Part shown: piece after piece, positions 7,218-35,127 of the stretch
Layout: the number at the start of each line of letters is the position of its first letter
How positions within the stretch are numbered: the stretch's first letter is position 1
Source of the DNA: a virus
Direction: 5' to 3' (one strand)
Length of the DNA: 35,276 bases
Virus record (IMG/VR): IMGVR_UViG_3300047562_004460
Location: 1-35,276 of that record
Program-made: the position numbers and the translations under genes
The notes under the pieces: generated by a model
Seen by the model: the letters and a program-made list of their open reading frames with translations, nothing else
What the model was told of the DNA's origin: nothing
The model's database searches: none

Positions 7218-7253
7218 TTCCATGACATTAGGTTAAAGATTGTTACAGGTCTG

Positions 7254-7281
7254 TTTAAGGTCCCCGGTTTTATCCTATAAT
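7254..7281 (+). promoter_or_regulatory. psbA promoter
   Basis: TATAAT at 7276-7281 lies 60 bases upstream of the psbA ATG. A weak -35 (TTTAAG, 7254-7259) is 16 bases before it. The leader contains a small GGGA-GCC-TCCC hairpin near 7291-7301 and no clear Shine-Dalgarno. Confidence 0.6.
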
Positions 7282-7341
7282 AGATACATCGGGAGCCTCC
7301 CAGCCCCTGATTTACATACTCCTGAACATCGAAATCTTAAT

Positions 7342-8424
7342 ATGACTACTTCTGTCGTCTCCCGGCAGCAAGTTGCCAATACTTGGGAGTCGTTTTGCGA
7401 GTGGGTAACCTCCACTAACAATCGTCTCTATGTTGGTTGGTTTGGGACTCTCATGATCCCAACTCTGCTTGCTGCAACTGTTTGCTTTATCGTGGCGTTT
7501 ATCGCTGCTCCTCCTGTCGATATCGACGGCATCCGTGAGCCTGTGGCAGGTTCGCTAATGTACGGAAACAACATCATCTCTGGTGCTGTTGTGCCTTCTA
7601 GCAATGCTATCGGCCTTCACTTCTACCCCATCTGGGAAGCAGGTTCGCTTGACGAATGGCTCTACAATGGCGGCCCGTATCAGTTGGTTGTTTTTCACTT
7701 CCTGATCGGCGTTTTCTGCTACATGGGCCGTGAGTGGGAACTTTCCTACCGTCTCGGTATGCGTCCTTGGATCTGCGTGGCTTACAGCGCCCCCGTGGCT
7801 GCTGCTTCGGCCGTGTTCCTTGTCTATCCTTTTGGCCAAGGTTCTTTCTCCGATGGTATGCCCCTCGGGATTAGTGGCACCTTCAACTTCATGTTGGTGT
7901 TCCAGGCTGAGCACAACATCCTGATGCACCCCTTCCACATGCTGGGTGTGGCCGGTGTGTTTGGAGGTAGTCTGTTTTCCGCAATGCACGGCTCACTCGT
8001 GACTTCTAGCCTTGTTCGCGAGACTACTGAAACTGAGTCTCAAAACTACGGCTACAAGTTTGGCCAGGAAGAGGAGACCTACAACATTGTTGCTGCTCAT
8101 GGGTATTTTGGTCGTCTGATCTTCCAATACGCCTCGTTCAACAACTCTCGTTCACTTCACTTCTTCCTTGCCGCTTGGCCCGTGGTCGGTATTTGGTTCG
8201 CTGCTCTTGGTGTTAGCACCATGGCATTCAACCTGAACGGCTTCAACTTCAACCAGTCGATCATCGCCCCTCAAGGGCAAGTGGTTAATACCTGGGCTGA
8301 CATCCTCAATCGCGCCAACCTTGGTTTTGAGGTAATGCATGAGCGGAATGCTCACAACTTCCCCCTCGATCTGGCCAGCGTTGAAGCAACTCCGGTAGCT
8401 TTGACTGCTCCGGCAATTAGTTGA
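7342..8424 (+). CDS. psbA: Photosystem II D1 reaction-centre protein
   Basis: D1 is the light-damaged core subunit of photosystem II, and phage copies keep host electron transport running during infection. At 360 aa it is full length with the usual five membrane spans. Numbering is one ahead of the standard host form: Tyr162 (YZ), Asp171 and Glu190, His191, the quinone-site region and the Mn-cluster ligands His333, Glu334, His338, Asp343 and Ala345 are all present. Residue 131 (standard 130) is Glu, the form associated with high-light D1 variants in Synechococcus. The ATG at 7342 is chosen because it gives the family N-terminus MTTS; the frame stays open further upstream without D1 similarity. 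The tail is APAIS where I would expect about APSING or APAIG in hosts. It is monocistronic with its own promoter and terminator. Confidence 0.99.
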
Positions 8425-10252: not shown

Positions 10253-10533
10253 AAAGAGAGACGTTTTATTGCCTTTGTGGGCACTTAGAGCATCAACTGA
10301 TTGCCGATGTCATCGATGATGACGTAGATACCACGGTGGTATATCTAAGTATGAATCTTTCTAATGAATTTTCCTTCTTCAAAAGACTGAAGTTAGGAAT
10401 TAAATACATTTTCGGATATAGGTCAAAATTCGGAATGTTTTCTGAGGTTCTTCTAGATGAGATTGAAACAATAAAATTTATTAGATTTTTAAATCAAGCT
10501 CTACTCGACAAGAAGATGGATGTCCCTAACTAA
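10249..10533 (+). CDS. Conserved phage hypothetical protein (94 aa)
   Basis: It resembles a small protein family I recall from many phages, marked by the segment FKRLKLGIKYIFGYRSKFG followed by a short helix ending in an IRFLNQAL-like stretch. The N-terminus has a CLCGHLEHQ cysteine pair that may bind metal. The function is unknown. It is coupled to the genes on both sides by overlaps of 4 and 14 bases. Confidence 0.65.
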   Translation: MKRETFYCLCGHLEHQLIADVIDDDVDTTVVYLSMNLSNEFSFFKRLKLGIKYIFGYRSKFGMFSEVLLDEIETIKFIRFLNQALLDKKMDVPN

Positions 10534-15698: not shown

Positions 15699-17177
15699 AT
15701 GAAACTTTTCAAATACTTGATGGTTGCTCCAGTTGCCTTTGGAGTTGCGACCCCTATGGCAAATGCTGCTGACCTCAAGCTTGATGAGGTTAGTAAGTAC
15801 TCTGCGTCAGAACAAGTTACAAGCATTTCCCAGTTTTCAGACGTTCGTCCTACCGACTGGGCTTATCAGGCGCTTAGCAATCTTGTAGAGCGTTATGGTT
15901 GCGTAGCAGGTTATCCTAATGGCACCTATAAGGGTGGCCAGGCAATGACTCGCTATGAGGCTGCTGCTCTGCTCAATGCTTGCCTCGACCGTATTACTGA
16001 AGTGACCGATGAAATTCGTAAACTTCAGGAAGAGTTCAAGGCAGAACTGATTGTTCTCCGCGGCCGTGTTGATGGCTTGGAAGCAAAGGTTGGTGTGCTT
16101 GAGTCGCAACAATTCTCTACTACTACCAAACTCAAGGGTGAAGCTACCTTTGTTCTTGGTGGAGTTCCTGGTCTTGATACGAATGACGGTGGAAACGTTG
16201 GCAACACCGCATTTAATTACGATCTCCGTCTGAACTTTGATACTTCGTTTACGGGTAAGGATCTGCTTCGTACTCGTCTGCGTTCTGGGAACTTTAGTAC
16301 CGATCCGTTCGGCTCTAGTTCTTCTCTGTTCAAACTGGACAAAGCAGAAACCACTGACAATCAGGTAGAAATTGATCGTCTCTACTATCAATTCCCTGTA
16401 AGCGTCGGTGGCGCGGATCTGACTTTCACCGCCGGTCCTCTTGTCCGCAACACTGAGATGGCATGGGTTCCTACTGCTTATAAGTCGGAAATCCTTGACT
16501 TCTTTGCCGTTGCAGGTACCCCTGGTGTCTATAACAAGGCAACTGGTGCTGGTATCGGTGTTCAGTATGGTGGTAGCAAGGGATTCGTTGCTGGTCTGAA
16601 TTATGTTGCCCAAGAAGGCGATGATAGTTCCACTGGTGTATTTGATTCCGATGGCGCTCTGAACTTTATGGCCCAACTTGGTTATCGTGATACCAACTGG
16701 GGTATTGGTGTGGGTTATCGTTATGGTTCTGAGGGCACCCGTCCTCGTACCTACAATGGTCTCCTGGGTGCCAATGGTGCTCTGGTTGATGGTCAGGAGT
16801 CGAATGCCATTGCAGTTAATGCTTATTGGCAACCTTCTGAATCTGGTTGGGTTCCCTCCATCTCTGCTGGTTATGGATATAACTGGGTGAGTGGTTCCAC
16901 TGGTGCTACTGATGCTACTGATAGTCAGTCTTGGATGGCAGCACTTCAGTGGAGCGATGTGTTTGCTAAGGGCAACTCTGCTGGTGTTGCTGTTGGTCAA
17001 GCACCCACTGCTGACACTGCTGGTGTAGATGATGCTACGCTGCTTGAGATCTTCTACAAGTTCCAAGTATCTGACAACATCAGCATCACTCCTGCTCTGT
17101 TCTACGTTGACAACAATCAGCGTTATCAGGACAGCAGCAAGTGGGGTGGCGTGATCCAAACCAAATTTACGTTCTGA
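15699..17177 (+). CDS. Cyanobacterial outer-membrane porin with SLH domain (SomA/OprB type, 492 aa)
   Basis: Such porins form the main diffusion channels of the cyanobacterial outer membrane and bind the cell wall through an SLH domain. A signal peptide ends at about residue 23 (MANAA). Residues 46-98 are an SLH domain (FSDVRPTDWAYQAL, CVAGYPNGTYKGGQAMTRYEAA), 100-136 a short coiled coil, and 140-492 a beta-barrel with alternating residues and a C-terminal Phe, the outer-membrane assembly signal. The length fits host porins of about 500 aa. Codon use is smoother and richer in host-like triplets than in the small genes nearby, pointing to capture from a host. Transcription is likely from the consensus promoter at 15460. 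Possible roles are nutrient uptake during infection or masking of the phage receptor. Confidence 0.95.
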   Translation: MKLFKYLMVAPVAFGVATPMANAADLKLDEVSKYSASEQVTSISQFSDVRPTDWAYQALSNLVERYGCVAGYPNGTYKGGQAMTRYEAAALLNACLDRITEVTDEIRKLQEEFKAELIVLRGRVDGLEAKVGVLESQQFSTTTKLKGEATFVLGGVPGLDTNDGGNVGNTAFNYDLRLNFDTSFTGKDLLRTRLRSGNFSTDPFGSSSSLFKLDKAETTDNQVEIDRLYYQFPVSVGGADLTFTAGPLVRNTEMAWVPTAYKSEILDFFAVAGTPGVYNKATGAGIGVQYGGSKGFVAGLNYVAQEGDDSSTGVFDSDGALNFMAQLGYRDTNWGIGVGYRYGSEGTRPRTYNGLLGANGALVDGQESNAIAVNAYWQPSESGWVPSISAGYGYNWVSGSTGATDATDSQSWMAALQWSDVFAKGNSAGVAVGQAPTADTAGVDDATLLEIFYKFQVSDNISITPALFYVDNNQRYQDSSKWGGVIQTKFTF

Positions 17178-18366: not shown

Positions 18367-18572
18367 TTAGAGGCCGACGGGTCTCTAAAGAGCATGGCAG
18401 AATAATCCTTATGGTTATCCACGGGATAATGCTGTGAGTTAGGGGTGGTGCCCGCTGAGTCGCTAGGAAACTAGAGGCCCAGAACCCTTTACCAAAGGGA
18501 ACTCATGATCGAGAGATACAGTTGTCAGTGTGACCCTCTCGTTGTTGGTATGACAGAATCCAACTGCTCAAT
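18367..18572 (+). other. Structured 206-base spacer in the tRNA cluster
   Basis: I see no gene or tRNA here. It contains several hairpins: AGAGGCC...GGGTCTCT (18369-18386), CTAG-GAAA-CTAG (18463-18474, with a GNRA loop) and CCCTTT-ACC-AAAGGG (18485-18499). It may be a small RNA, a processing spacer or decayed tRNA sequence. Confidence 0.45.
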
Positions 18573-18646
18573 GCCTCCTTAGCTCAGCTGGATAGAGCAA
18601 CGGTTTTGTAAACCGTAGGTCGCCGGTTCAAGTCCGGCAGGGGGCT
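18573..18646 (+). tRNA. tRNA-Thr (anticodon TGT)
   Basis: Acceptor GCCTCCT pairs with AGGGGGC. The anticodon arm is ACGGT-TTTGTAA-ACCGT and the T arm is GCCGG-TTCAAGT-CCGGC. It is directly followed by tRNA-Asn. Confidence 0.95.
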
Positions 18647-21688: not shown

Positions 21689-24376
21689 ATGTCAAAGCTT
21701 AATTCCCTGGGTTATGTAGTCCTTTCCGACTCTATGAATTCTAAAGTCTTCGGAGAGGGTATTAATGCCACCAATCCAGAGACAAATAAGCTCTCAGAAG
21801 TAAAGGAAGAAATGCAAAAATTCGGGGTGGAGTTTCCTATCAAAAACCCCGAAAATTTCTTTATTAAAGATTTTTCTCTTCCCGAACTTGAAGCAGATAA
21901 TATCAAATCTCACTTCGACTCGATTTCTCAGGACGTATGCAAATCCCGAGTCACAAAAATGAAAGACTTTGCATATACAGAAATCCCTGATCCCCCGGAT
22001 AAAACTAAGTATTTCTGCTATGCTGGTTGGGTCAAGTATCCATTTGACGGATCTCCTGAAGTTGTGGAAGGTATCGAGGAGGATGCCGGGGTGTTTGACT
22101 GCGAGACTTTCGTGAAGGGGAGTGATTTTGCCCATCCAATCCTCGCAACCGCAGTGACGGATAAGGCATATTATATTTGGATGCATCCAAGTTTTGTAAA
22201 TCCAAAACTGCCCTATGAGCCGATGCTCGTTCCGCTTGGTCGGAAAGATGGCATCTTTGTCGCTCATAACGTAGCCTATGATCGCCCTCGGACGCAGGAA
22301 GCCTACGTCCTCGGAAAAACCAACTTGTGGTTTGATACGATGTCGGCGCATATCAACGTCTCCGGATTGGCCTCTGGGCAGAGGTGGTGGTATGTTCAGA
22401 AACAGACTAAAAAATCCACCTATAAAGCAGATCCTGTGTGGGCGGATAAGGGAGCAATGAATAACCTCATCGATTGCTATAACTTCCATTGCCGACCTGC
22501 AATCCCTCTCGAGCCGGAAGATAAAAAGATCCGTGATGCTTTTGTTGAGGCAAACTCAATGCAGGATCTGATGCCTCAAAGGGACGAACTTATTCAATAT
22601 GCTCTTAATGACGTTAAGATTACGTTTGAATTGTATTCAATCCTTGTCCTCAAATACCTCCAGAATAATCCTTCTCTGACTACTCTGGCTGGTCATTTTG
22701 GTATCTCTGGCGCTAAACTCCCCGTCGTTTCTGACTGGAAGCGATGGTTTGATAACTGCGAAAAGCAATGGGAGCAAAGCATCGCCCGTCAGGAAGAGAT
22801 CCTTGGCGAAATGGCCCAGGAGGTGTATGACGCATGGAATGAAGGAGAGATCACCGAAGAAGAGATTGCCGATGATCCTTGGCTTTCTCAACTGGATTGG
22901 GAGGCTAATTTCAAACTTACAAAAGCGGGTAAACCCAGCTCTAAATGGTATGGGGTTCCTAAGTGGGTGAGAAGCGTATCCGCAAAAAATCTTATCGATG
23001 GAAAACCTGTTATCGAGGGTATTTCGACAAAGAATCGCTTATCCCATCTCCTCCTCCGCCTCAAGTGGGATGATCAGCCGATTAAATTCTTTACTGATAA
23101 GGGCTGGTGCTACATGGACGAGGATACCGGATCCTATGTGCGGATTCCACATAAAGACGGAGAAGGTGTAAATGTCGGCGGAGTTCTGACCAAGGATTAC
23201 GTCGAAGACTTTGAGTCAGGGATTCTGAGTTCCGATCTTCCTCAAGCAAAAGAACTTATCTCTCTCGCCGTGAATGTTGCTTATTGGACGAGTGTTCGTT
23301 CTCGTGTGAGAGAACAGAACGTGGAAAGTGTTCTTGCTCCAAATGGCAAAGAATTCTCACTAGTTATTCCTGCAACTGTTCCCCATAACACTTCCACAAA
23401 TCGAGCAGGTGAAAATCTCTGGTTGACTGTGCCGGATCCCAAGTACGATAAAATCGGTAGTGAAATCAAGACCCGTGTTCAAGCACCTGAAGGCTATGTG
23501 TTTGTCGAATCGGACTTTGATGCCCAAGAAGCCGTAGTTGCATCCATCTTCGCCGACTCATATCACAAGTTGGCCGGAAGTACACAGTTCTCCCACTCCA
23601 TCCTTGCCGGATCGAAAGATGACGGAACGGATATGCATTCAATGACAGCAAAAGCAATCGGAATCTCTCGAGCTGTGGCTAAGGGATGTAATTATGGTAT
23701 GTTGTATGGATGCGGAGCCAAGACCCTGGCCAATACCATCCGCAAGGGGAATAAGAGTATTCCTATGAAAGAGGCTATGGAAATGGGCAAAAAACTCATC
23801 AAAATCAAGAAGGGTGAGAAGGCATCTCGGCTCTCGCAAACTCTTATCGGCGGATCTGATTCCTATGCCTACAATGAAATGGCAAAGATTGCAAATATGC
23901 CTTGCCCAATCAATCCTCTTAGCGGGACTAAAATGTCTACTTCTTTCCGTCCCTCGAGTGTGGGGACAGACTTCTGGACCATGAGGAATAACTGGTGCAT
24001 TCAATCCACCGGAAGTGCCATGCTCCATGCCTTTATGACTGCGATGGAATGGCTCATTGATAAATATGAGTTGGAGGCAGAGTTCTGCATGTCTGTTCAT
24101 GATAGCATCTTGTATCTCTGTCCCGAATCCCAGGCCGAAAAGGTCGCTGCACTCTTTCAGGTGGCTCATGCCTGGTGTTGGGCCTGGATGAGGTATAATT
24201 ATGGTATCTATGAACTCCCTGTGGCCAATGCCTGGCTTTCCTCTATTGAGATCGATAAGATCTTCCGTAAATCTGCCACCTCAAGCACAAAAACCGTCTC
24301 TCAGCAACAAACCGAAGAAGATGGAAAATCGGTAACTGTGCAGGATCTTATTCCAGTGTTCAATTCTATGTTTTAA
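21689..24376 (+). CDS. Family A DNA polymerase, mitochondrial Pol gamma-like, with 3'-5' exonuclease (895 aa)
   Basis: Replicative or repair DNA polymerase with proofreading. Exonuclease: ExoI FDCET (Asp137, Glu139), ExoII AHNVAYDR (Asn194, Asp198), ExoIII YALNDVK (Tyr304, Asp308). Polymerase: motif A ESDFDAQE (Asp609, Glu614), motif B SRAVAKGCNYGMLYG (Arg661, Lys665, Tyr669, Tyr673), motif C VHDS (Asp805). By memory it matches human POLG closely: GSEIKTRVQAPEGY against GSELKAMVQAPPGY, GTDMHSMTAKAIGISR against GTDLHSKTATTVGISR, and the C-terminal LPVANAWLSSIEIDKIFRK against LPQSVAFFSAVDIDRCLRK. Motif C has Ser806 where HDE is usual. A spacer of about 200 residues separates the two domains, as in Pol gamma. 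It is a single long gene with its own promoter. Confidence 0.95.
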   Translation: MSKLNSLGYVVLSDSMNSKVFGEGINATNPETNKLSEVKEEMQKFGVEFPIKNPENFFIKDFSLPELEADNIKSHFDSISQDVCKSRVTKMKDFAYTEIPDPPDKTKYFCYAGWVKYPFDGSPEVVEGIEEDAGVFDCETFVKGSDFAHPILATAVTDKAYYIWMHPSFVNPKLPYEPMLVPLGRKDGIFVAHNVAYDRPRTQEAYVLGKTNLWFDTMSAHINVSGLASGQRWWYVQKQTKKSTYKADPVWADKGAMNNLIDCYNFHCRPAIPLEPEDKKIRDAFVEANSMQDLMPQRDELIQYALNDVKITFELYSILVLKYLQNNPSLTTLAGHFGISGAKLPVVSDWKRWFDNCEKQWEQSIARQEEILGEMAQEVYDAWNEGEITEEEIADDPWLSQLDWEANFKLTKAGKPSSKWYGVPKWVRSVSAKNLIDGKPVIEGISTKNRLSHLLLRLKWDDQPIKFFTDKGWCYMDEDTGSYVRIPHKDGEGVNVGGVLTKDYVEDFESGILSSDLPQAKELISLAVNVAYWTSVRSRVREQNVESVLAPNGKEFSLVIPATVPHNTSTNRAGENLWLTVPDPKYDKIGSEIKTRVQAPEGYVFVESDFDAQEAVVASIFADSYHKLAGSTQFSHSILAGSKDDGTDMHSMTAKAIGISRAVAKGCNYGMLYGCGAKTLANTIRKGNKSIPMKEAMEMGKKLIKIKKGEKASRLSQTLIGGSDSYAYNEMAKIANMPCPINPLSGTKMSTSFRPSSVGTDFWTMRNNWCIQSTGSAMLHAFMTAMEWLIDKYELEAEFCMSVHDSILYLCPESQAEKVAALFQVAHAWCWAWMRYNYGIYELPVANAWLSSIEIDKIFRKSATSSTKTVSQQQTEEDGKSVTVQDLIPVFNSMF

Positions 24377-25408: not shown

Positions 25409-25440
25409 AAGCCCCGAGTTTGCGCCCGGGGCTTTTGTTT
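25409..25440. terminator. Bidirectional terminator between RlpA-like gene and dps
   Basis: GCCCCG (25411-25416) pairs with CGGGGC (25427-25432) and is followed by TTTTGTTTT rightward and an A/T-rich TTCCTTTTATT leftward. It lies between converging genes and can serve both. Confidence 0.92.
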
Positions 25441-25444
25441 TATG

Positions 25445-25858
25445 TCAAACTTCTTCGTTTACTGACTTTAAAAGATAACAAATTTTATTGCAGTCCATAA
25501 GTAAATCTTCTATTGCCGCAATAAATCCGTAGTTTTGATCTTCTTCTGCTTCTTCTCTTGCCCTTTTCAACCCTGCCTCCAATTCTTCCACCAATCCGCA
25601 AAGTTTTTTACAGAGTTCGGCCGGAGTTGCCCATTCTAACTCCGGGACTGAGTTCATGATAGATGCCGGAATTTCAATCCCAAGACCACGAACCTGTTCG
25701 GCCATCGGGTCAAATTTTTCCGCAAATGTCTCATAAACCTTCTCAAATAAGAGGTGGAAGTGATAGAAATCGACTCCTGTAACGTTCCAATGCGCGAGAT
25801 GAGCTGCCTCAATGATATTATGTTGGAATTCTAGTACCTGGATATATACTGGGTTCAT
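25445..25858 (-). CDS. dps: Dps-like ferritin-fold protein (137 aa)
   Basis: Dps proteins form 12-subunit cages that oxidise and store iron and protect DNA from peroxide. The signature AHWNVTGVDFYHFHLLFE is at 22-39. Relative to E. coli Dps the ferroxidase ligands map to His23, His35, Glu39, Asp50 and Glu54, all present and correctly spaced. At 137 aa it is short of the usual 150-170, mainly at the N-terminus, so the DNA-binding tail is missing. It is the last gene of the leftward virion cluster and overlaps the stop of the gp37-like gene by four bases (ATGA). It may protect phage DNA from photosynthesis-derived peroxide or supply a virion component. Confidence 0.85.
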   Translation of the reverse strand: MNPVYIQVLEFQHNIIEAAHLAHWNVTGVDFYHFHLLFEKVYETFAEKFDPMAEQVRGLGIEIPASIMNSVPELEWATPAELCKKLCGLVEELEAGLKRAREEAEEDQNYGFIAAIEDLLMDCNKICYLLKSVNEEV

Positions 25859-26787
25859 TGGTCTTGATAGGCTGGATTAGTGGAAAGATTTAGGTCTTGA
25901 CGCGCGGAAGTGAGAGGATTAGAGTTTGGAACAGTTCCGATTTTATTCCTCCAGAGTCCTGCATCGATATTTAACTTGAACCATGGCGGATATGGATCTG
26001 TATTACCTTTAATACATTTCCAGACTTTTTGCAATGATCCTGAAGTAACTTTTGATTGATCTACTATTCTATTACCCTGCGAATCAAAGATATATGCTAC
26101 TCTAGGAATAAACTCATAGGTGGCTGTTCCATCTAGTTGTGGATTACATGTGGTATTTAATGTATCTGAAACTTCCCTCTCGCATCGTATATCTTCCACG
26201 ACATACTCTTCAAAACTATCAACTCCGAGTTTTCTTCTCCAGATAGCCAATCCGGTAGTTTTTCCATCATTTGTGAGTAGGCAACTTCTTTGGGGTAAGA
26301 AGTCTTCAATAGAGATCGGATCAAATGCAGCACAGGGTTGGGAGTAAAATCTACCATCGGAGATGGTCACTTCAACCGTGAAGTTCATCTCATATATGAA
26401 CTGAGATGCTTCAGTGACTTGGACAAATCGTCCCGCTCCTGGTTCAAATCCTGTCTGAAACTCTAATCCGGGTATTTCTGGCACCCATCCAGTTACAGAG
26501 TCATAGATAAGATCCATGATAGGTAGGGCAAAACTATGCCCTTCTCTCTGAACCTGTTTTTGGATGATTGTGATCGAGTAGTTAAGAGATCTATTCCTCA
26601 CTGTAGGAATATAGGCGCCCTTGTTTGGATTGTTTGTATTTTCACTAGCATAACTAACGATAATCATCGTTTGCTCTGCCACTCTGCCAGATTCATCCAA
26701 CTCCTCTGCAAGACGAAGTACCACAGCACTTTGGCCTATAGTCTGATGAACTCTCTTATGAAGTTGATTTTCAATCTCTAAAAGCAT
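25855..26787 (-). CDS. Mu gp37/DUF1834-like head-tail completion protein (310 aa)
   Basis: The opening EIENQLHKRVHQTIG followed by a beta-rich middle (MIIVSYASEN, LNYSITIIQKQ, ALPIMDLIYDSVTGW, GLEFQTGF, YEMNFTVEVTI) matches the gp37-type proteins of Mu-like phages, which act at the head-tail junction or tail end. Mu gp37 is about 180-200 aa; the extra C-terminal 130 residues here are unassigned, with a GNTDPYPPWFKLNIDAGLW stretch. It lies in the same order as in Mu, after the gp36-like gene, with one extra gene between. Confidence 0.65.
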   Translation of the reverse strand: MLLEIENQLHKRVHQTIGQSAVVLRLAEELDESGRVAEQTMIIVSYASENTNNPNKGAYIPTVRNRSLNYSITIIQKQVQREGHSFALPIMDLIYDSVTGWVPEIPGLEFQTGFEPGAGRFVQVTEASQFIYEMNFTVEVTISDGRFYSQPCAAFDPISIEDFLPQRSCLLTNDGKTTGLAIWRRKLGVDSFEEYVVEDIRCEREVSDTLNTTCNPQLDGTATYEFIPRVAYIFDSQGNRIVDQSKVTSGSLQKVWKCIKGNTDPYPPWFKLNIDAGLWRNKIGTVPNSNPLTSARQDLNLSTNPAYQDQ

Positions 26788-26790
26788 GCG

Positions 26791-27132
26791 TTACCACTCT
26801 CCACCACTGATAAAGTTTTGTAGTTCCCAGTTACCAGTTAGATAATTATAGAGTAGAGCGTCGCCGGGCTTCACGCCTCTTACAAAATTTACATTAGAAA
26901 GATCCTGAATTCTCCTAGTATTTTCTAAAGCAAGGATGTATTGACGTAATTCTGCTACAGATTGCTTATATTCCGTACCATCAGGGAATACTCCTATTTT
27001 CCCGCCAAATTGCCCATATATACCATTGGAGTAATAACATCCTCCGTCATCTCCACTCTGCAGAAAGAGAAATCCTGACCCGTCCGCGGGCCCGGGATTG
27101 AATGGATCGTAGCCGTATGGTTGATTGCTCAT
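26791..27132 (-). CDS. Hypothetical virion protein (113 aa)
   Basis: The N-terminus is Gly/Pro/Asn/Tyr-rich (NQPYGYDPFNPGPADGSGF) and the C-terminus carries LSNVNF, then GVKPGDALLYNYLTGNWE, a motif found in many phage tail and fibre proteins. It is packed between the gp36-like and gp37-like genes with 2- and 3-base gaps, so a structural role is likely. I do not know a named family. Confidence 0.65.
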   Translation of the reverse strand: MSNQPYGYDPFNPGPADGSGFLFLQSGDDGGCYYSNGIYGQFGGKIGVFPDGTEYKQSVAELRQYILALENTRRIQDLSNVNFVRGVKPGDALLYNYLTGNWELQNFISGGEW

Positions 27133-27134
27133 GG

Positions 27135-27929
27135 TTAGAATGTGTCGCCTTCTTTCAGGCCATTAAAGTTGTCAAATTCTCCGTCAGTAGATTCCGTCTC
27201 ATTAACAGAGATAAAGATATCTCCATGGTGGGGATCTACTGCTTCGGAAGTGTTTGTAAAAGAGGCAAGGTCCCTTGTGGTTTCCAACGCATCAAATAAC
27301 TCATTGGCCTCAAGTACCGACTCAGGCATGAGTCCTTCGATTCCACTAACAGAAGCTGAGAGTCTCTCAGAATCGTAGCGAGTGGCCTTTGTGGCCTCCT
27401 TACGTGGGAGTTGCCACCAACGATTATTCCCACCCTCGCGAAGGACCCAGCGGCTTGTGGAAGGTTCTGTGAAGCTCCTGCCTCTGCTGTGAGAACTGCG
27501 GGTCATGGTGCATCCGCTTTTCCAGTATCTATAGGCCTCTTGCCACTTTAGACCCGAGGAAGGAGTTGACTTTGCTGCCCACAACTCTAATTGCTCTAGA
27601 GCTTTTTCTGCAGCGTCAATGACCTGCTGACGAGGGCGAAGTATATCTAAATACCAGCGGGCAATTATGGCTTGAGTGCGACGATAAGATCCTGCAATAA
27701 GAATCTTACCCTGAGGTGGAGCTGTGATAATGTAATTATTGATTAACGTAGCAGCGTCATTAAGAGCAACTTGGATCTTATCGACATTAATCTGATTACC
27801 TGTTGGATTATCGATATTTGAGAGTTCGACTGCTTCTTGGTAACCAAATACTTCTACAAAGTATTCCACAGTGGCGGGATTGCAATTATCTGCAATACCA
27901 AACTCATCTGGGTAGGGGGAATTGGGCAT
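27135..27929 (-). CDS. Mu gp36/DUF1320-like protein (264 aa)
   Basis: The first 125 residues fit the DUF1320/Mu gp36 pattern: TVEYFVEVFGYQEAVELSNI, then NVDKIQVALNDAATLINNYI, GSYRRTQAIIARWYLDI and a closing VIDAAEKALEQLELWA helix. These proteins belong to the head-tail connector set. The C-terminal 140 residues are a polar, Ser/Arg-rich addition not found in the short Mu protein. ATG at 27929 is preferred over an upstream TTG at 27935 because AGG lies at normal distance from it. It starts a second leftward unit, after the capsid operon's terminator. Confidence 0.75.
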   Translation of the reverse strand: MPNSPYPDEFGIADNCNPATVEYFVEVFGYQEAVELSNIDNPTGNQINVDKIQVALNDAATLINNYIITAPPQGKILIAGSYRRTQAIIARWYLDILRPRQQVIDAAEKALEQLELWAAKSTPSSGLKWQEAYRYWKSGCTMTRSSHSRGRSFTEPSTSRWVLREGGNNRWWQLPRKEATKATRYDSERLSASVSGIEGLMPESVLEANELFDALETTRDLASFTNTSEAVDPHHGDIFISVNETESTDGEFDNFNGLKEGDTF

Positions 27930-27984
27930 AATCAACGCCTATCTATCTTTTACTTTAAACCAAGCAACATTTCTCACCTCTATA

Positions 27985-27993
27985 TGATATAAT
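27985..27993 (+). promoter_or_regulatory. Extended -10 promoter almost touching the ATG at 28000
   Basis: TGATATAAT ends seven bases before the ATG. Transcription would start at or next to the A of the ATG, so the message would be leaderless. Confidence 0.65.
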
Positions 27994-27999
27994 TTCATC

Positions 28000-28317
28000 A
28001 TGCACTTTAAGTCTTTAGCTTATGCCTTAGACAGAGACCTAAGGAGGGATAGGTTTGTTTTTAGAAGAACCGCCAGGGCGATGACTTCTATGCTAGAGAA
28101 TGGTACATCTAATGTAACCTTTAAAGAATTAGAAGAACTAGAGAATCTATTGATATCCAAGGAAAATTTTACTGATGAGCATCTCATGGAACATCAATTA
28201 AATGATCTTTTTGGAAATGAATCTAATAACAAATTGTTTGCAATTAACCTAGAGGCTGGTGTAAAACTCCTTGAAGTAATACGCAATAAAAAAGAGGCCC
28301 TAAGGCCTCCTTTATAA
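28000..28317 (+). CDS. Hypothetical protein, rightward, inside the leftward virion cluster (105 aa)
   Basis: I do not recognise it. It is a charged, helical protein (FKSLAYALDRDLRRDRFVFR at the N-terminus). It is the only rightward gene in the last 10 kb and has its own extended -10 so close that the mRNA would lack a leader; no Shine-Dalgarno is present. Its last codons contain the terminator hairpin of the leftward capsid operon. A small regulatory or early-expressed protein is possible. Confidence 0.65.
   Translation: MHFKSLAYALDRDLRRDRFVFRRTARAMTSMLENGTSNVTFKELEELENLLISKENFTDEHLMEHQLNDLFGNESNNKLFAINLEAGVKLLEVIRNKKEALRPPL
28284..28309 (-). terminator. Terminator of the capsid operon (leftward)
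   Basis: On the minus strand GAGGCC (28309-28304) pairs with GGCCTC (28299-28294) around TTAG and is followed by TTTTTTATT. It lies 26 bases beyond the capsid gene and inside the end of the rightward 105-aa gene. Confidence 0.88.
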
Positions 28318-28334
28318 TCTCGAGTAGGTTAAAC

Positions 28335-29321
28335 TCAGCTTCCAACGGGGTTGTTGAAGATGAAGCCGGAACCACACTTACCAGTTTCGCCCATGCCCAC
28401 GAGCTCGAAGCTACGCTCGACAAGGATATCACCGGTGAACACTCTACGCTCAATGTTGAAACGCTCAGGAGTGGCGATAGGATATCCGCTTAGGGTGTAG
28501 GTGTAAGCGAAAGCAGGGTTACCGTAGTTGGCGTCCATGGCGGGCATGAAGCCATCAGTCGAACCCGAAGGATGATAGAAGAGAACAGCAATGTTATTGT
28601 AGATGTTCTCAAGCGCACCAGTTTCCTGATTGAGCTTAAGTCTACGGGCAACACGGATCTCGTCAAGACCGAAGATCTGAGCTAGGGTCTTCTCATCAAC
28701 GAGAACACCACGCTGCATGAAATCACGGATACGCTTGTTACGCTTGAGGGCGTTGAAAGCGTCAGGTGAGATCACCATCTTGTTAGGATAGATACCGATT
28801 TGTGAACGGACTTGCTCTTTGGCATCATCCATCAGAACTTCAACGTCAGCGGTAGGTGAGTTGAATTGATCGGCTCCTCCGTTATAGGTGGCAAGATTGA
28901 GAACGTTACCAGTCTCATACTGAGTATTATCGGTTACTTTCTCGGCCACTTGGACTTCCCAAGATTGCATGAGACGATTAGCGGCGTCCTTAGCAGCAAA
29001 CTGACGAAGGTCAATTTGAGCGGCGCCATTCTTGGCCTCAGCAGCTACCTCTTCGGCGATTTCCCAGCTGATCGCTTCCTGACGGAGGGCGAACGAACGG
29101 GTTCCGAATTGGTTCTGGATTTTCTGGATGTTGGTTCCAGGGCTGCGCAGGAATGACTGAGCAGCAAAAGCTTCTTTGCCGAACACGAGTGTACGACCAG
29201 CTCTGGTATTCATAGATACCGAAGGAGCAAAGAAGGTTGCTACGCCTTCAGAGTTTTTGTAACCCTGGGCGAGTTGCGTAAGAATAGGGTCAATTACGCG
29301 TACCTGATCTAAATTCATCAT
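28335..29321 (-). CDS. Major capsid protein, HK97 fold (328 aa)
   Basis: The capsid shell subunit. The sequence has the traits of a Mu/lambda-E-like capsid protein: an N-terminal arm (MNLDQVRVIDPILTQLAQGY), an E-loop region near 60-110, a helical spine with EVAAEAKNGAAQIDLRQFAAKDAANR, the segment PTADVEVLMDDAKEQVRSQIG, a strand PNKMVISPDAFNALKRNKRI, and a C-terminal VFTGDILVERSFE. It has a strong ribosome site (AAGGAGAG) and sits after the protease-scaffold and decoration genes, the normal order. At 328 aa it is far shorter than T4-type gp23 (over 450), which separates this phage from T4-like cyanophages. Confidence 0.9.
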   Translation of the reverse strand: MMNLDQVRVIDPILTQLAQGYKNSEGVATFFAPSVSMNTRAGRTLVFGKEAFAAQSFLRSPGTNIQKIQNQFGTRSFALRQEAISWEIAEEVAAEAKNGAAQIDLRQFAAKDAANRLMQSWEVQVAEKVTDNTQYETGNVLNLATYNGGADQFNSPTADVEVLMDDAKEQVRSQIGIYPNKMVISPDAFNALKRNKRIRDFMQRGVLVDEKTLAQIFGLDEIRVARRLKLNQETGALENIYNNIAVLFYHPSGSTDGFMPAMDANYGNPAFAYTYTLSGYPIATPERFNIERRVFTGDILVERSFELVGMGETGKCGSGFIFNNPVGS

Positions 29322-29347
29322 GATTGTTTACTCTCCTTTAGTACCTA

Positions 29348-29851
29348 TCAAGCTCCAGCTTCGTTACCGAGCTTAACGCGAATATACTGACCGGCACCAG
29401 CCGAAGTAACCGCATCAAGGGCACGACCTAGAACCACACCAGAACCACCGTCATTAGCTTGGCCAGAGGCATTAGCTACAACAGCGTCATCTACAGCAAA
29501 AGTAGCGGTGGGGTCGACTTCAACAATCACAATACCTGAAGTTACCACAGAGGCGAGACCCTGGTAGGGGAATACGCTGGGCTTCAGAGGAGTGGTTGAA
29601 GGATTGAGTTGGCCTTCATAGACCAGGGTTGAACCGTCATCTACTTGATAACCTTTGGCGGTAAGTTCGCCTTGGCCATAGATGCGGTATACATTCACAC
29701 CAGCGGCATAACCACCAGCGGAGGGGTAAGCGCCATCGCGCTTAATGAAACGATGAGCTTCGAGACCATTGGTGAGAGCCGTAGCGTCAGTGACAGTTAC
29801 GGTCTCTACATACTGGTGATCGAAGGACATATAACGTGGATCAGTTGCCAT
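29348..29851 (-). CDS. Capsid decoration/cement protein (DUF2190-like, 167 aa)
   Basis: A glycine- and alanine-rich all-beta protein with the DUF2190 look: TALTNGLEAHRFIKRDG, VYRIYGQGELTAKGYQVDDG, TSGIVIVEVDPTATFAVDDAV, GGSGVVLGRALDAVTSAGAGQYIRVKL. Such proteins sit on the capsid surface and stabilise it. It has AAGGAGAT upstream and lies between protease-scaffold and capsid genes, the usual place for decoration proteins. Confidence 0.82.
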   Translation of the reverse strand: MATDPRYMSFDHQYVETVTVTDATALTNGLEAHRFIKRDGAYPSAGGYAAGVNVYRIYGQGELTAKGYQVDDGSTLVYEGQLNPSTTPLKPSVFPYQGLASVVTSGIVIVEVDPTATFAVDDAVVANASGQANDGGSGVVLGRALDAVTSAGAGQYIRVKLGNEAGA

Positions 29852-29863
29852 GTTTTAATCTCC

Positions 29864-31753
29864 TTATGAGTCAGATAAGATAGCCTTCAGAGCAATGGTA
29901 TATTCAACGCCCTTTTCCTCAGCGTACTCCAGTGCTTGGACGTGGAGATCAGCAGTGGCTGGATCGTAGACATACCCCGCGGCCGAAGGAGTCGGTTGCT
30001 TCTTGGCAGCAGGTGCCGAAGCGGGGGTGGCAAATTCTTCAAAGCTTACCATCGAAGGTAGCTTGTCAAGTACGCCTTTGAAGAAATCAAATTGAGAGGC
30101 TTTGCCTGTCTCGGAGAAATTTACCGAGTTTTTATTGTTAAGGGTTTCCATGAATCTCACAAGATCGGCTTTAGCAACGATCTGCTGAGTCAGTTTGCCC
30201 TCGGAGTAGAGAACCTCACAGAAATCGGAAATTTCCTTCTCTCTCATGAGTTTTCTCTGTCTCGCAAGTTCCTCTTCCAATTCGGCTACCCGGGCTTGAA
30301 GGTCATTCTGTCCCTGAACTCCCATAGCACGCTCGCTATGATCCAGAGTTCCTGTAGCCTCTGCGCTCTCTTCGGAGTGCTCGGAGGTGGCTTTCATGCG
30401 GTTTTTCTCTTCTTCATCCTCTTCTTCTTCATAGCTCTTGCATCCTTCACCATGCTCAGAAGTTGTATCTTCTTCAGCATAGACCTCTTCTCCCTTGGGT
30501 TCTTCAGCTCCTTTTACATCCTCAGAGCTGGGCTTTTCCGCCTCGGAGGGCTTTTCACCTTCCTTAACAGCTTCTCCCATGTCTTCGGTCTTCTCTTCAC
30601 CATCCTCTTCTTCTTCTCCCTTTTTAGCTTCAATAGCCTTTTTAAGTCCTTCGGGCATTTCGCCGTAAGACATTCCTCCTTTATCTTCCATCATGGAAGC
30701 AGCATCGGTCTTAAGAGCTAACGCCTTGATTAACTCTTCAATTTCATATTGGGAGGCAAGTTCAGCGATCTTTTCGTCTCCGCCTTCTACCTCACCGGAG
30801 ATGTCCTCGGTATCCATGTCTGATCCCTCATCTCCGCCTTCAGCAGGCATTTCAGAATCGGTATCATCACCTTCCATACCTTCTCCCTCGGCATCTTCAG
30901 CGGGCATTTCTCCGCCTTCGTCCTCGAGTCCTAGATCATCTCCTCCTTCTTCCTCTTCCATGCCCACTGACGGGGTCATAGAATCTCCGCCCATTTCAGA
31001 CTCCATTCCGGAATCCATGGCATAATCCATGTCATAATCGGCGGGGGCACCGGTCTCTGAAACCTGATTACCACTGTCGTCATATACATTGGCTTTAGGA
31101 GTTCCGCCACCGGCTCCCCCACCAATATTGATATTTACAGTCATTCCCCCTTCGCCGTGGTCAACAATTGTGGATTCCACCGAAGCAGGAGTTTCTGGTT
31201 TGGTTTTTTTCCTAGCCATAGTTACATTTTTTCCTAGATGTTCTTTAAACGAAATAGAAGACTCCCCTTCGGAGGGGGTTATTGTTATCGTTTCTTGTTC
31301 GGATTTCTCCGAAAAAGCAGTTAGCCCCTTTACAGCAGGGATAGAAACCAAACCAAGATGGCGTAGGGAGAGTTTCCCAGGTGTAGGATTCGTTTCTGCC
31401 TCTGGCAAATAAAATGAACTACTTACTTTTTTAAACACCCCATCTTTGATGAGTTGTTCAGCCTTAGGGGTAAGTTCGACCTTACCCCAAAGTTCTTTAC
31501 CCTTTCTCCAAACTTTTTGTACCCAGCCAAGAGCAGGTGTACCGTCTTGTTGATCGTGACCGATGATCAAAGGGGCCTCGTGGTGTCTAGGATCGTAGGA
31601 ATTAACGACCTGATCGAGGTCTTGTTCGGTGAAGACGAGCTTTTGGCCCGTAGAAGAGATCTGCGGGCCTGCTCTGAACATCTCCACAAAAACAACCTTT
31701 TTAGGTTGCTGAGTGGAGAGAGGTTCATTAGCGTTGAGTACTTGTTCTTTCAT
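29864..31753 (-). CDS. Prohead protease-scaffold fusion (Mu gpI-like, 629 aa)
   Basis: Residues 1-175 match the Mu I-type prohead protease: FVEMFRAG, LIIGHDQQDGTPALGWVQKV, LWGKVELTPKAEQLIKDG, FKKVSSSFYLPE and LSLRHLGLVSIPAVKGL. Residues about 200-470 are a very acidic, low-complexity scaffold with runs of E and D, followed by a coiled coil (about 490-520) and a C-terminal helical domain (560-629) of the type that touches the capsid protein. In Mu the scaffold Z is made from an in-frame internal start of I. Here a Met at base 31219 (MARKKTKPE) with AGGA 12 bases ahead could do the same. It starts 3 bases after the sheath stop. Confidence 0.85.
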   Translation of the reverse strand: MKEQVLNANEPLSTQQPKKVVFVEMFRAGPQISSTGQKLVFTEQDLDQVVNSYDPRHHEAPLIIGHDQQDGTPALGWVQKVWRKGKELWGKVELTPKAEQLIKDGVFKKVSSSFYLPEAETNPTPGKLSLRHLGLVSIPAVKGLTAFSEKSEQETITITPSEGESSISFKEHLGKNVTMARKKTKPETPASVESTIVDHGEGGMTVNINIGGGAGGGTPKANVYDDSGNQVSETGAPADYDMDYAMDSGMESEMGGDSMTPSVGMEEEEGGDDLGLEDEGGEMPAEDAEGEGMEGDDTDSEMPAEGGDEGSDMDTEDISGEVEGGDEKIAELASQYEIEELIKALALKTDAASMMEDKGGMSYGEMPEGLKKAIEAKKGEEEEDGEEKTEDMGEAVKEGEKPSEAEKPSSEDVKGAEEPKGEEVYAEEDTTSEHGEGCKSYEEEEDEEEKNRMKATSEHSEESAEATGTLDHSERAMGVQGQNDLQARVAELEEELARQRKLMREKEISDFCEVLYSEGKLTQQIVAKADLVRFMETLNNKNSVNFSETGKASQFDFFKGVLDKLPSMVSFEEFATPASAPAAKKQPTPSAAGYVYDPATADLHVQALEYAEEKGVEYTIALKAILSDS

Positions 31754-31756
31754 TTA

Positions 31757-34700
31757 TCAGAATACAGTAGTTGTATCAAGGAAAGAACTGAATCTCTCTT
31801 CATTTCTGGAGAAAGAATCACTTAGTTGGGCAACTTGACCAGCCGGAGTTCTTACAATGGTAACGAGTAGACGCTCAAGGGTTGGGCTTGTGGCCACGTA
31901 TACATCGAGTCTTACCGTTCCATTTTCTAGATCGGTTGGGTTGTTGTTTGCAGAAGAGCAGATAACCATATAGGCTTGCTCAGGTCTCGAGCCAAACAAA
32001 GCACCTTGGCGGAAGAATTGACCAAGGATCTGAGAGGCAATAGACTTCACGCGGGCATATACCGTGCCTGCGGAATCGATCTGCTCGAAAAGAATGTCAT
32101 CAAAGCTTCTTCCCATAACGTCAATAAGGACGTTGAGGATGGCGCGAGTGTTGACAAACTTAAAGAGTTGATTGGAGGATAGTGTTCTAGCACCCCAAGC
32201 AACAATGCCTCTGTTGGGAAGAGAGCGGATCGGATTGAGTCCGAGGGCATAAGTGACTTCTTGTTGTTGGGCAGAGATCTCAAACTTAAGCCCAGTTGCA
32301 CCACGTAGTGGGTATCTAGCACCCGCGGGAGGCGCTTGGAATCCTTCATTGATGTAACGTGAGCAAGCAATACCTGCCACGAAGCTTGAAGGAGCAACAA
32401 ATCTATCGTCAAGATTTCTTACATAAGGAGCGTAGTATGCGGCATGGCCGAATGGCACCCCAACAGTGCTCTTGATTAGATCAAGCTCATCCTGGACTTT
32501 AGATAGAGATACTTCATCGGCACCACAGTCAATGAGTGCGATGTGCTGAGTACCAACAATGCCTTCGGTTGGACCAAGCTTACCTTCAGCGGCCTTAGTT
32601 AGAGCCTGGGTAATCTTGAGACGCTCTTGACGAGCTTCGAAAGCACTTGCAAAATCCCCAGATCCAACTTCATAAGTTAGAACGGTATATGCTTCAGGGG
32701 CAAAGAGGAAGCCGGGGGAAAGTACCTTGGAGTCCATACCTTGCTCAATAGCATACACAAAATCATTAGCTTTTGCGGTAGCAGTTAGCTTATATGATTC
32801 ATATTGTGGATTTTGATCTAAAGATACAAGTTTAACAACATTCTCATCGGCAACTCCGAATCTATTACGACCTGGATTCACTGGTGATGAGATACCATTA
32901 TTAGATGTAATCTTGAGTTTTAGAACATAGTCAAATGAGAAGAAGCCATTAGGAATTGACTTATCTAGAGCAAAAGGAGCTCCAGCAGCAATTGTTACAT
33001 CCTTTGGAAGAACGGTGGCTAAAGTATCAGAAGAGACGGATACGATAGTAAATCTGATTCCATTAGCTACAATCACATCTCCAGGGGCAATTTCTGTAAG
33101 GAACTTAGTTCCAGTACCATTAACTGTTCCGCTTAATGCTCCGGGGACAACTTGAATTGTTCCAGTGAGTGAGATATCGGAAAGCTCTGGACGGATGTAA
33201 GGAGAACCTGCTTCTGAGATTAGATTAGAATATTTATGTCCGTTATTTGGAGCATAAACAGTACCCCCACTTGCAATAGGATCATAATCAATGGCCTCTA
33301 CGGTGTAATAACCGTCGAGTTCTTTTTCCACAAGAATCTTATTGATTTCGGTGACAAGACCGTCGGTCAACTCTTGAGGTGTTCCGCCATTGACGATAAT
33401 GGCTCTATCCTCTCCAGCAACGTTTACATAGAATACTTGGACGGAATCTGGAAGATATCCGGTACGTGTATCTACGTCACCTGTTGGAATTTCAGTGCCA
33501 CCAGCAAATTCGGTAAATGTAGCAGTTCCACTATCATACTGCCAGTATGAAGCATCTCCATCAGCCCACTTAAGAGGAGCAGGATGACCTGAAGTTACAT
33601 CTTTTGAGATAGCAATAATCTTCTGATCAGGAATAGAACCCGCAGAAGAATATACGTTTTGATCAACAAGGAATGCTTTGAGGATATCTGATTGCTCGGA
33701 AGTTGGAAGATACGCAAGCTTACGTATTACTACTTCAGCGCCAGGAGCTCCGGTGAATGTCTCTGGAAGACCACCTAATGTGCTTGATAGTTGAACTACA
33801 TCTCCGACTTTATTAACTACATAATATGTGGTATCAAAGTCAAGACTTAATGTCCCTTGAGTAGTACCTTGAAGAACTACAGCATCTCCATCGCTCAATC
33901 CAACAGACGAAGTAAGTGTGATCTCATCATCTGCGTCATTAAACCCTGCCACTGGAGCAGCATAGGCTGTAGAAACCTCAAGCAAATATGCGCTTAATGC
34001 GCTACCTGACTGGAAAAGAATAGGTTCACCGGTGGTAGTATCTCTAGATACACATTTGAAATTGATTTCTTTTACAGGAGCAAAAGATTTAACAATGATT
34101 TGATTATTCAAATCAAGAGGAGCAGCGTACGTAGTATCGCTAAATTGATAAGCAACAAATCTATCTACAGAAGGAAGATTTCTTGTATCACGTGAAAAAA
34201 TTCTAAATTGACCGGCTAGAGCCTCAGTAGCGTCTTGTTCAATGCGATAGAAATCAGAGAATCCATCACCATTCCCCGCGAGGAACAGATAAAGATCTCT
34301 AGCATTATCAGCTTGATCAAGAGCAGTAGTAGTAATTACGCGAATTGGATCACCATCGGCATCATTTACGCCGATAGGTGTACCAAAATATCGCCCATTT
34401 ACCTTGATGGCAAACGCATTGTAACCAGCACCAGCACTTGAAGCACCCAGATCAATTACAGTTTCCGGGGTCGGAGATACTCTGGTGAAGTATAGGATAC
34501 CGTTAACTCCCACGTTATCAAAGAAAGCCTTTACCGCGTCATAGGAGGCGAGAGCCCCTCTATTAGTATCAGGGATTGTTCCGCCAATCTTTTCAAGATA
34601 TTCGGCAGGAGATCCTACTTGAGTTGGGATATAAGGTTCGTAGATAGAGTAAGCGTTTACAGCATCTTCACCATAATAGTCCTCCGTGGGAGTCGTACCA

Positions 34701-34819
34701 AACATATATCCCACAGCATGAGTAGCAATGGGTTGTGGCAGACCACCAGTTGAGGCTTGGGTTACAAAAACGCCGGGCCGATTCAATGTCGAAGCATTGA
34801 TTCTAATAGGATTGGCCAT
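31757..34819 (-). CDS. Contractile tail sheath protein (1020 aa)
   Basis: The sheath subunit that contracts to drive DNA injection. The N-terminus (NRPGVFVTQASTGG) and the C-terminal third (PLRGATGLKFEISAQQQEVT, GIVAWGARTLSSN, FKFVNTRAILNVLIDVMGRS, FFRQGALFG) hold the conserved sheath core. At 1020 aa it is about twice Mu L and longer than T4 gp18 (659). The excess, roughly residues 150-700, is made of beta-rich inserted domains such as those with DGDAVVLQGTTQG and GDVIVANGIRF, which probably cover the outer surface. It leads the leftward operon sheath, protease-scaffold, decoration, capsid. In Mu the sheath gene lies downstream of the head genes. Confidence 0.92.
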   Translation of the reverse strand: MANPIRINASTLNRPGVFVTQASTGGLPQPIATHAVGYMFGTTPTEDYYGEDAVNAYSIYEPYIPTQVGSPAEYLEKIGGTIPDTNRGALASYDAVKAFFDNVGVNGILYFTRVSPTPETVIDLGASSAGAGYNAFAIKVNGRYFGTPIGVNDADGDPIRVITTTALDQADNARDLYLFLAGNGDGFSDFYRIEQDATEALAGQFRIFSRDTRNLPSVDRFVAYQFSDTTYAAPLDLNNQIIVKSFAPVKEINFKCVSRDTTTGEPILFQSGSALSAYLLEVSTAYAAPVAGFNDADDEITLTSSVGLSDGDAVVLQGTTQGTLSLDFDTTYYVVNKVGDVVQLSSTLGGLPETFTGAPGAEVVIRKLAYLPTSEQSDILKAFLVDQNVYSSAGSIPDQKIIAISKDVTSGHPAPLKWADGDASYWQYDSGTATFTEFAGGTEIPTGDVDTRTGYLPDSVQVFYVNVAGEDRAIIVNGGTPQELTDGLVTEINKILVEKELDGYYTVEAIDYDPIASGGTVYAPNNGHKYSNLISEAGSPYIRPELSDISLTGTIQVVPGALSGTVNGTGTKFLTEIAPGDVIVANGIRFTIVSVSSDTLATVLPKDVTIAAGAPFALDKSIPNGFFSFDYVLKLKITSNNGISSPVNPGRNRFGVADENVVKLVSLDQNPQYESYKLTATAKANDFVYAIEQGMDSKVLSPGFLFAPEAYTVLTYEVGSGDFASAFEARQERLKITQALTKAAEGKLGPTEGIVGTQHIALIDCGADEVSLSKVQDELDLIKSTVGVPFGHAAYYAPYVRNLDDRFVAPSSFVAGIACSRYINEGFQAPPAGARYPLRGATGLKFEISAQQQEVTYALGLNPIRSLPNRGIVAWGARTLSSNQLFKFVNTRAILNVLIDVMGRSFDDILFEQIDSAGTVYARVKSIASQILGQFFRQGALFGSRPEQAYMVICSSANNNPTDLENGTVRLDVYVATSPTLERLLVTIVRTPAGQVAQLSDSFSRNEERFSSFLDTTTVF

Positions 34820-34881: not shown

Positions 34882-35127
34882 TTATACAGACGTCTCTTCT
34901 GATTTATACTGCTGAAAGAGCTCATTCATCAGCCAATCAGGACATGACATACTTCCGCATCTTCTGATCTCTAGGATTTTCATTGCCTTCCTAAGGATCT
35001 TATTAAAGTCATTTGTATCAACGTATCTTGCACTTACCTTTATAAAGGATTTTAATTCCAGCGTGTCCTGCTTCAGACAGATGGAGCAGAGTATAAGAAT
35101 GAGTTTTAAATGCTCCGAATCTGTCAT
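34882..35127 (-). CDS. Hypothetical protein (81 aa)
   Basis: I do not recognise it. It is helical, with three cysteines in the N- and C-terminal thirds (LCSICLKQ and GSMSCPDW). Its ATG overlaps the stop of the gene entering from the right edge (TAATG), and it ends 62 bases before the sheath start, so it probably belongs to the transcript preceding the sheath. Confidence 0.6.
   Translation of the reverse strand: MTDSEHLKLILILCSICLKQDTLELKSFIKVSARYVDTNDFNKILRKAMKILEIRRCGSMSCPDWLMNELFQQYKSEETSV

Follow-up and report, generated by a model that had tools for sequence, protein, structure and literature searches.

An S-TIM5-type marine cyanomyovirus with a Mu-like head cassette of the RcapMu/RR1-B branch, a tail sheath of different ancestry and a conserved Dps gene

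A gpI-type protease and a scaffold guide prohead assembly, the capsid protein forms the shell and the cement protein stabilizes it; gp36 and gp37 join the head to the tail, and the sheath contracts. In phage Mu the order is I ... gp36-gp37, and in Rhodobacter phage RcapMu and Rhizobium phage RR1-B it is protease-DUF2190-capsid-hypothetical(s)-gp36-gp37. In RR1-B, gp37 is followed by a P2-like sheath gene, and no sheath is annotated in the stretch of RcapMu that was read. Cyanophage S-TIM5 represents a cyanomyovirus lineage, described in 2012, that shares cyanophage metabolic genes. Its genes run sheath-protease-cement-capsid-gp36-like-111 aa-314 aa, with a convergent gamma-type DNA polymerase behind them, and the gene order of S-TIM54 is the same. 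According to the passage of PMC4928673 that cites Sabehi et al. (2012), S-TIM5 is without a T4 structural module.

The window (the whole stretch of DNA analyzed here, 35,276 bases) is IMG/VR record IMGVR_UViG_3300047562_004460 and comes from an uncultured marine cyanophage; the fragment holds no portal, no terminase and, beyond the sheath, no further tail genes of the TIM5 type. The minus strand, read from 34819 to 25445, carries genes for a sheath (1020 aa), a protease (629 aa), a cement-like protein (167 aa), a capsid protein (328 aa), a gp36-like protein (266 aa), products of 113 aa and 310 aa, and Dps (137 aa). The features are as follows.

7240..8424, plus: psbA (photosystem II D1; PF00124, Photo_RC, 1.4e-89; 90% identity to S-TIM5 psbA)
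21689..24376, plus: gamma (mitochondrial-type) DNA polymerase, lineage marker and convergent neighbor (PF18136, 7.9e-52; 72.5% identity to S-TIM5)
25409..25434, minus: terminator-like hairpin directly after Dps (10-pair stem, T-rich tail)
25445..25858, minus: Dps-type miniferritin, 137 aa (PF00210, 2e-8; PHROG 3636, 1e-16)
25855..26787, minus: probable gp37-type protein (tail-terminator-like), 310 aa, with a C-terminal extension (PHROG 209, which holds RR1-B gp37, 3.6e-4)
26791..27132, minus: conserved 113-aa protein (56% identity to S-TIM5 gp155, annotated there as a virion structural protein)
27135..27935, minus: gp36-type head-tail adaptor, extended at its C terminus (PHROG 195, to which Mu gp36 belongs, 5.9e-31; residues 20-117 aligned with Mu-type gp36 in hhalign, 94.5%)
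28000..28317, plus: 105-aa gene between capsid and gp36 (by alignment, homologues with 61% identity in locus L005 and 35-36% in L015 and L018)
28290..28312, minus: terminator-like hairpin behind the capsid gene (GAGGCC TTAG GGCCTC, then TTTTTTA; read from the sequence, as the terminator scan lists only the plus-strand reading, 28294-28309)
28335..29321, minus: major capsid protein, 328 aa, RcapMu/RR1-B type (PHROG 1005, 6.5e-68; PDB 3bjq, 1.8e-19)
29348..29851, minus: cement/decoration-like protein in the DUF2190 position, 167 aa (sub-threshold PF09956, 0.003, and PF22758, 0.08; DUF2190 place as in RcapMu and RR1-B)
29864..31753, minus: head maturation protease of the Mu gpI type (N-terminal part of about 185 aa) that continues into an extended acidic C-terminal part (PF10123, Mu-like_Pro, 3.7e-10; PHROG 976, 5.6e-70)
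31757..34819, minus: tail sheath, 1020 aa, with a conserved C-terminal core (about 690-1020) and a variable middle (PHROG 17610, 7e-288; PHROG 23, 1e-30)
34882..35127, minus: small conserved gene ahead of the sheath, 81 aa, orthologue of S-TIM5 gp149 (58% identity; S-TIM5 record L001, 33513-33746; same place in relatives)

All genes listed in the initial annotation were real, in frame and correctly placed; its list omitted the Dps gene (25858-25445) and the plus-strand 105-aa gene (28000-28317).

The nearest isolates by DNA and protein search were S-TIM5 and its sisters. The left part of the window was collinear with S-TIM5 (topoisomerase, 66% identity; AGT, 66%; psbA, 90%; polymerase, 72.5%), and the likeness to Aurunvirus (S-TIM5 and S-TIM54/61/66) extended over the head and sheath genes and their order, the adjoining gamma-type polymerase, the topoisomerase-AGT-psbA block and a tRNA cluster. 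The capsid protein was 85% identical to that of S-TIM5, and the sheath 54% over the C-terminal 640 aa. The order sheath-protease-cement-capsid-gp36-113 aa-gp37-like, with a TIM5-type capsid and sheath, was present in the window as it is in S-TIM5, on the same strand. Among IMG/VR loci collected by capsid similarity, many of them partial, the best 80 of 144 showed this order wherever it could be read (4 to 8 of 8 genes visible per locus), and three seeming exceptions among these 80 were traced to cross-hits by a domain of the sheath. Mixed ancestry of this kind could also arise if sequences of a Mu-like phage and a cyanophage had been joined by misassembly; however, cultured isolates show the same joins, as do dozens of independent contigs, and misassembly was rejected on these grounds as having next to no probability.

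The window differed from S-TIM5 in the block from psbA to the polymerase, which holds zwf, gnd, talC, ptox and petE in S-TIM5, whereas that of the window holds a bilin reductase, an SLH-OprB porin, tRNAs and a manA RNA; speD was present in both. The ferredoxin-dependent bilin reductase (10520-11173) had no match in the S-TIM5 genome, and the porin (15699-17177), also absent from S-TIM5, was 70% identical to that of Synechococcus phage S-SRM01. The manA RNA motif (18367-18574, 110 bits) was flanked by the tRNA-Ile and tRNA-Thr genes of the tRNA cluster. We hold it highly probable that the window is part of the genome of an S-TIM5-type (Aurunvirus-related) marine cyanomyovirus and, jointly, that its head and sheath have the ancestries given below. 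The initial annotation was correct in describing a psbA-bearing non-T4 cyanomyovirus that shares AMGs with T4-like cyanophages. The separate cyanomyovirus lineage that it proposed is real but already known: it is S-TIM5/Aurunvirus, since S-TIM5 had been described as a non-T4 cyanomyovirus with shared metabolic genes.

Profiles built on the TIM5 family were compared with a panel of proteins from Mu, RcapMu, RR1-B, T4, P-HM2, P2, Nostoc phage N1 and S-CBWM1. The TIM5-family capsid profile matched S-CBWM1 (1e-62), RR1-B (5e-35) and RcapMu (2e-30) and nothing else in this panel, while the protease profile matched S-CBWM1 (2e-46), RcapMu (2e-29) and RR1-B (3e-27). The capsid protein was 40% identical to that of S-CBWM1 and 28% identical to that of RcapMu (E value of 1e-24). 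In hhalign, the protease scored 98.8% against the RcapMu/RR1-B protease; a direct search with it additionally matched numerous phages of Pseudomonas, along with the remaining Mu-like relatives of the capsid. Thus, within the Mu-like head modules, both the capsid protein and the protease fall in the RcapMu/RR1-B branch. Mu itself shares gpI-type protease and gp36 homologues with the window, but its gpT capsid protein showed no similarity (hhalign, 0.3%; Mu gpT is in PHROG 371), so that "Mu-type" is valid for the broader group only. The gpI-type protease, the RcapMu-type capsid and gp36 were present in that order in the window, and the portal of S-TIM5, encoded on the opposite strand about 10 kb past the sheath, matched Portal_Mu (4e-74); by analogy with S-TIM5, the genome would have a TIM5-type portal and terminase. 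Taken together, the profile matches, the gp36 match, the shared order and the S-TIM5 portal mark the whole head as Mu-like and as belonging to the RcapMu/RR1-B branch. RcapMu and RR1-B resemble the window in gene order and in their capsid proteins (28-29% identity), but they differ in having small genomes (37-39 kb), no cyanophage genes and other tails.

Could this instead be a T4-like cyanomyovirus with virion genes too divergent to be easily recognized? The shared AMGs and a sheath core related to T4-like gp18 (P-HM2, 1.7e-16; T4, 8e-5) would fit such an origin. However, the capsid, protease and adaptor matched Mu-like families and not gp23, gp21 or gp13/14, and the S-TIM5 portal is Mu-type. 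Searches of PHROG, Pfam and the profile panel and with hhalign gave no match of the capsid and protease to T4 gp23 and gp21, and best matches of the virion proteins to the T4 gp20/gp21/gp23 families, which were looked for specifically, did not occur. We therefore rejected a T4 ancestry of the head and regard a T4-like phage as scarcely tenable.

The gpI-like protease and the 328-aa capsid protein named in the initial annotation were both recovered, and its Mu-like morphogenesis set was upheld by the protease, gp36, the gene order and the S-TIM5 portal, but with a capsid of the RcapMu/RR1-B type in place of Mu gpT. By analogy with Mu gpI/Z, the acidic C-terminal part of the protease is probably the scaffold. 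The DUF2190-like protein stood by its position between protease and capsid, but not by a sequence match at threshold (PF09956, 0.003); the cement assignment is thus weak by sequence and draws on position and sub-threshold matches. In four relatives, group I introns (Rfam RF00028, 71-91 bits) lay directly before capsid codon 9 (L006, 9678-9968; L064, 1525-1819; L067, 5609-5874; L080, 9704-9969), accompanied in L006 and L067 by GIY-YIG endonuclease ORFs, and in L066 an insert of ~1 kb before capsid codon 21 had no gathering-level match.

Behind the capsid, the gp36-like protein was recovered by its family and alignment matches, as the initial annotation had it, with the ATG at 27929 being the likelier start (264 aa, not 266; most relatives have 263-265). 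The gp37-like protein was less straightforward. The 113-aa product had no match to gp36, gp37 or gp38 in hhalign and was rejected as gp37 because the 310-aa product fits better. The latter gene follows gp36 as in Mu, RcapMu and RR1-B, save for the intervening 113-aa gene, and its product matched PHROG 209; hhalign of its family with three gp37 sequences gave a non-significant 4%, and its AlphaFold model (mean pLDDT of 70) showed helices, then a strand-strand-helix-strand-strand arrangement. The gp37-like protein is most likely this 310-aa product (26787-25855), although it is weak by sequence, so that the gp37-like protein of the initial annotation stands as probable for this gene and not for the 113-aa one. 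The label "portal protein" that PHROG would give the 310-aa product was rejected, since PHROG 209 holds RR1-B gp37 and PHROG 490 holds Mu gp37, both under that name. RefSeq likewise labels gp37-type proteins "portal protein" (Mu, L089, 5955-6503; RR1-B, L096, 9047-9538), a misleading annotation.

The sheath told a different story from the head. Its TIM5-family profile matched the sheaths of Nostoc phage N1 (1e-55), S-CBWM1 (4e-36), P-HM2 (gp18, 2e-16) and T4 (gp18, 8e-5), and hhalign gave 99.9% for the N1 sheath and 97.3% for T4 gp18; against Mu gpL, neither the profile panel nor hhalign (0.2%) gave a detectable match. Mu gpL also falls in another PHROG than the sheath of the window, and it thus joins gpT as a virion protein of Mu not detectably related to its counterpart here. 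The initial annotation had described the gene order as rearranged, which would mean a whole Mu-type virion module with its sheath gene moved from behind gp37 to the front. The head genes are indeed arranged as in Mu-like phages, and Mu lacks a sheath gene at the place where it stands here, but a displaced gpL was rejected, as the best matches were to Nostoc-phage and T4-type sheaths, and RR1-B, with its related head, has a sheath of the P2 kind; we consider such a move very improbable. In a sheath tree, a long-branched one used here only alongside other evidence, the RR1-B sheath grouped with P2 FI. Because RR1-B combines this head with a P2-like sheath, the RcapMu/RR1-B head type occurs with different sheaths. 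Moreover, the sheath came ahead of the head genes in every relative examined. This includes S-CBWM1 (Synechococcus phage, Aokuangvirus), which resembles the window in its capsid (40% identity), its protease (43% over the N terminus), its sheath gene ahead of both and its adjoining gp36-like and gp37-like genes, but differs in having the portal between sheath and protease, adaptor genes some 65-70 kb away (circular map) and no Dps after them. Gene order compared across non-T4 cyanomyoviruses thus gave one pattern in S-TIM5 and S-TIM54 and the same forward sheath in S-CBWM1. The "rearranged Mu order" is better read as a Mu-like head combined with a sheath of different ancestry and kept across the lineage; sheath-first order holds as a rule across the S-TIM5-type lineage, and the combination looks like module mixing. 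Within the sheath, residues of about 265-370 were missing in several relatives in the alignment. Residues 534-614 resembled both tail-fiber PHROGs and a segment inserted into the cement protein in other relatives (L048, L049 and L064), a likeness that suggests an exchangeable displayed domain.

The sheath was said to lead the operon. It does precede the head genes, but it is not strictly the first gene, because the 81-aa gene (35127-34882), conserved in S-TIM5, comes before it. The genes were tightly packed apart from one gap of 399 bases that separates capsid and gp36 and contains the opposite-strand 105-aa gene and a terminator-like hairpin; because this hairpin, read on the minus strand, lies past the capsid gene and ends in a run of T, the block need not be one operon and may form two transcription units, from sheath to capsid and from gp36 to Dps. 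The same gap was an insertion hot spot, exceeding 250 bases in 32 relatives, with opposite-strand genes of ~105 aa or NUMOD3/GIY-YIG homing-endonuclease-like genes, and a second insertion spot in relatives was the gap ahead of the gp37-like gene.

The block ends with the Dps gene, whose ATG overlaps the stop codon of the gp37-like gene (ATGA, a 4-base overlap). The product has no long N-terminal tail, and its ferroxidase ligands H23, H35, D50 and E54, the His, His, Asp and Glu that Dps proteins carry at the dimer interface, aligned to Helicobacter pylori NapA and were invariant in 20 sequences; relatives were about 37-57% identical to it, with one at 83%, and synonymous sites were saturated. 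In a scan with patterns from the Dps alignment, drawn from the TIM5-type family so that other phage Dps would be missed, the gp37-like gene lay directly upstream of Dps in all 66 newly fetched loci that matched over most of the gene, some of these being other cuts of contigs already found by the capsid search. One further locus (L163) matched only residues 6-42 and had none of the cassette genes. Among loci with room to show it, Dps was missing only from the S-TIM5 clade, and no profile match to it was found elsewhere in S-TIM5 in six frames. On the head-protein tree its presence or absence was a single change (SH-aLRT of 99; unrooted, as the outgroup S-CBWM1 had a branch length of 10). Because bacterial Dps proteins are distant (best local matches of 32-53% over short stretches), recent capture from a host was rejected. 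Searches of phage records gave no Dps at an E value of 1e-5. Dps is known from Lactobacillus and gut phages, where it is read as an oxidative-stress enzyme (PMC8008677); these likewise carry a ferritin-like Dps in the phage genome, but that of the window is in a marine cyanophage and keeps a constant position after the last head gene, an arrangement in marine cyanophages for which we found no description in the literature. What is new is thus a Dps with invariant ferroxidase ligands locked to the end of the head cassette in most wild relatives.

Its position raises the question of whether Dps is part of the particle. A Dps packaged in or attached to the virion and carrying iron, or delivered at infection, would fit the way in which all relatives with Dps have the gene at one set position closing the head genes and the 4-base overlap in the window, and is in keeping with the lack of recent host capture. 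However, the S-TIM5 clade is without the gene, so Dps is not needed for a TIM5-type head, and the other phage Dps proteins are read as oxidative-stress enzymes (PMC8008677); a virion-borne Dps thus seems unlikely. It is quite unlikely that a large wild TIM5-type clade produces Dps as a component of its head module and bears it, together with iron, inside or on its particles, S-TIM5 then belonging to the one clade without it. A free protective enzyme is the role we moderately favor from the sequences.

What we infer of function and timing builds on the homology, gene order, conservation and ferroxidase ligands described above. By descent, the phage has a head cassette of the RcapMu/RR1-B branch (protease with a probable scaffold, cement, capsid, gp36 and gp37-like protein, with a Mu-type portal elsewhere in S-TIM5), joined to a T4/Nostoc-phage-related sheath and to cyanophage metabolic genes. 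As is usual for Mu-like phages, the cassette would direct assembly and maturation of an icosahedral head, and it would attach a contractile tail, which the sheath gene implies for this uncultured phage known here from its genes. Because photosynthesis would be kept going by the phage psbA, oxidants and released iron are expected in the host; Dps would bind and oxidize Fe(II), probably late, and sequester free iron in the dying photosynthetic cell, and removal of this iron would shield phage DNA from Fenton damage. As the best overall explanation, we have strong confidence in an S-TIM5-type lineage with a head of the RcapMu/RR1-B branch, a sheath of different ancestry and a Dps coupled to the cassette.

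The structural genes of the TIM5 lineage were reportedly called "entirely unique" by Sabehi et al. in 2012, and they can now be placed in a known group of head modules. What this analysis adds is the Dps gene and a precise ancestry for both head and sheath, the rest being mostly known already. Overall, these results present a cyanophage lineage as a mosaic of a Mu-like head, a foreign sheath and shared metabolic genes. If the iron-laden virion were true, the phages of the Dps-bearing clade would be marine particles that carry iron. Conservation of Dps suggests that, late in infection, oxidative stress and iron are of importance to most of the TIM5-type group, an importance that is invisible in the cultured isolates because they are without the gene.
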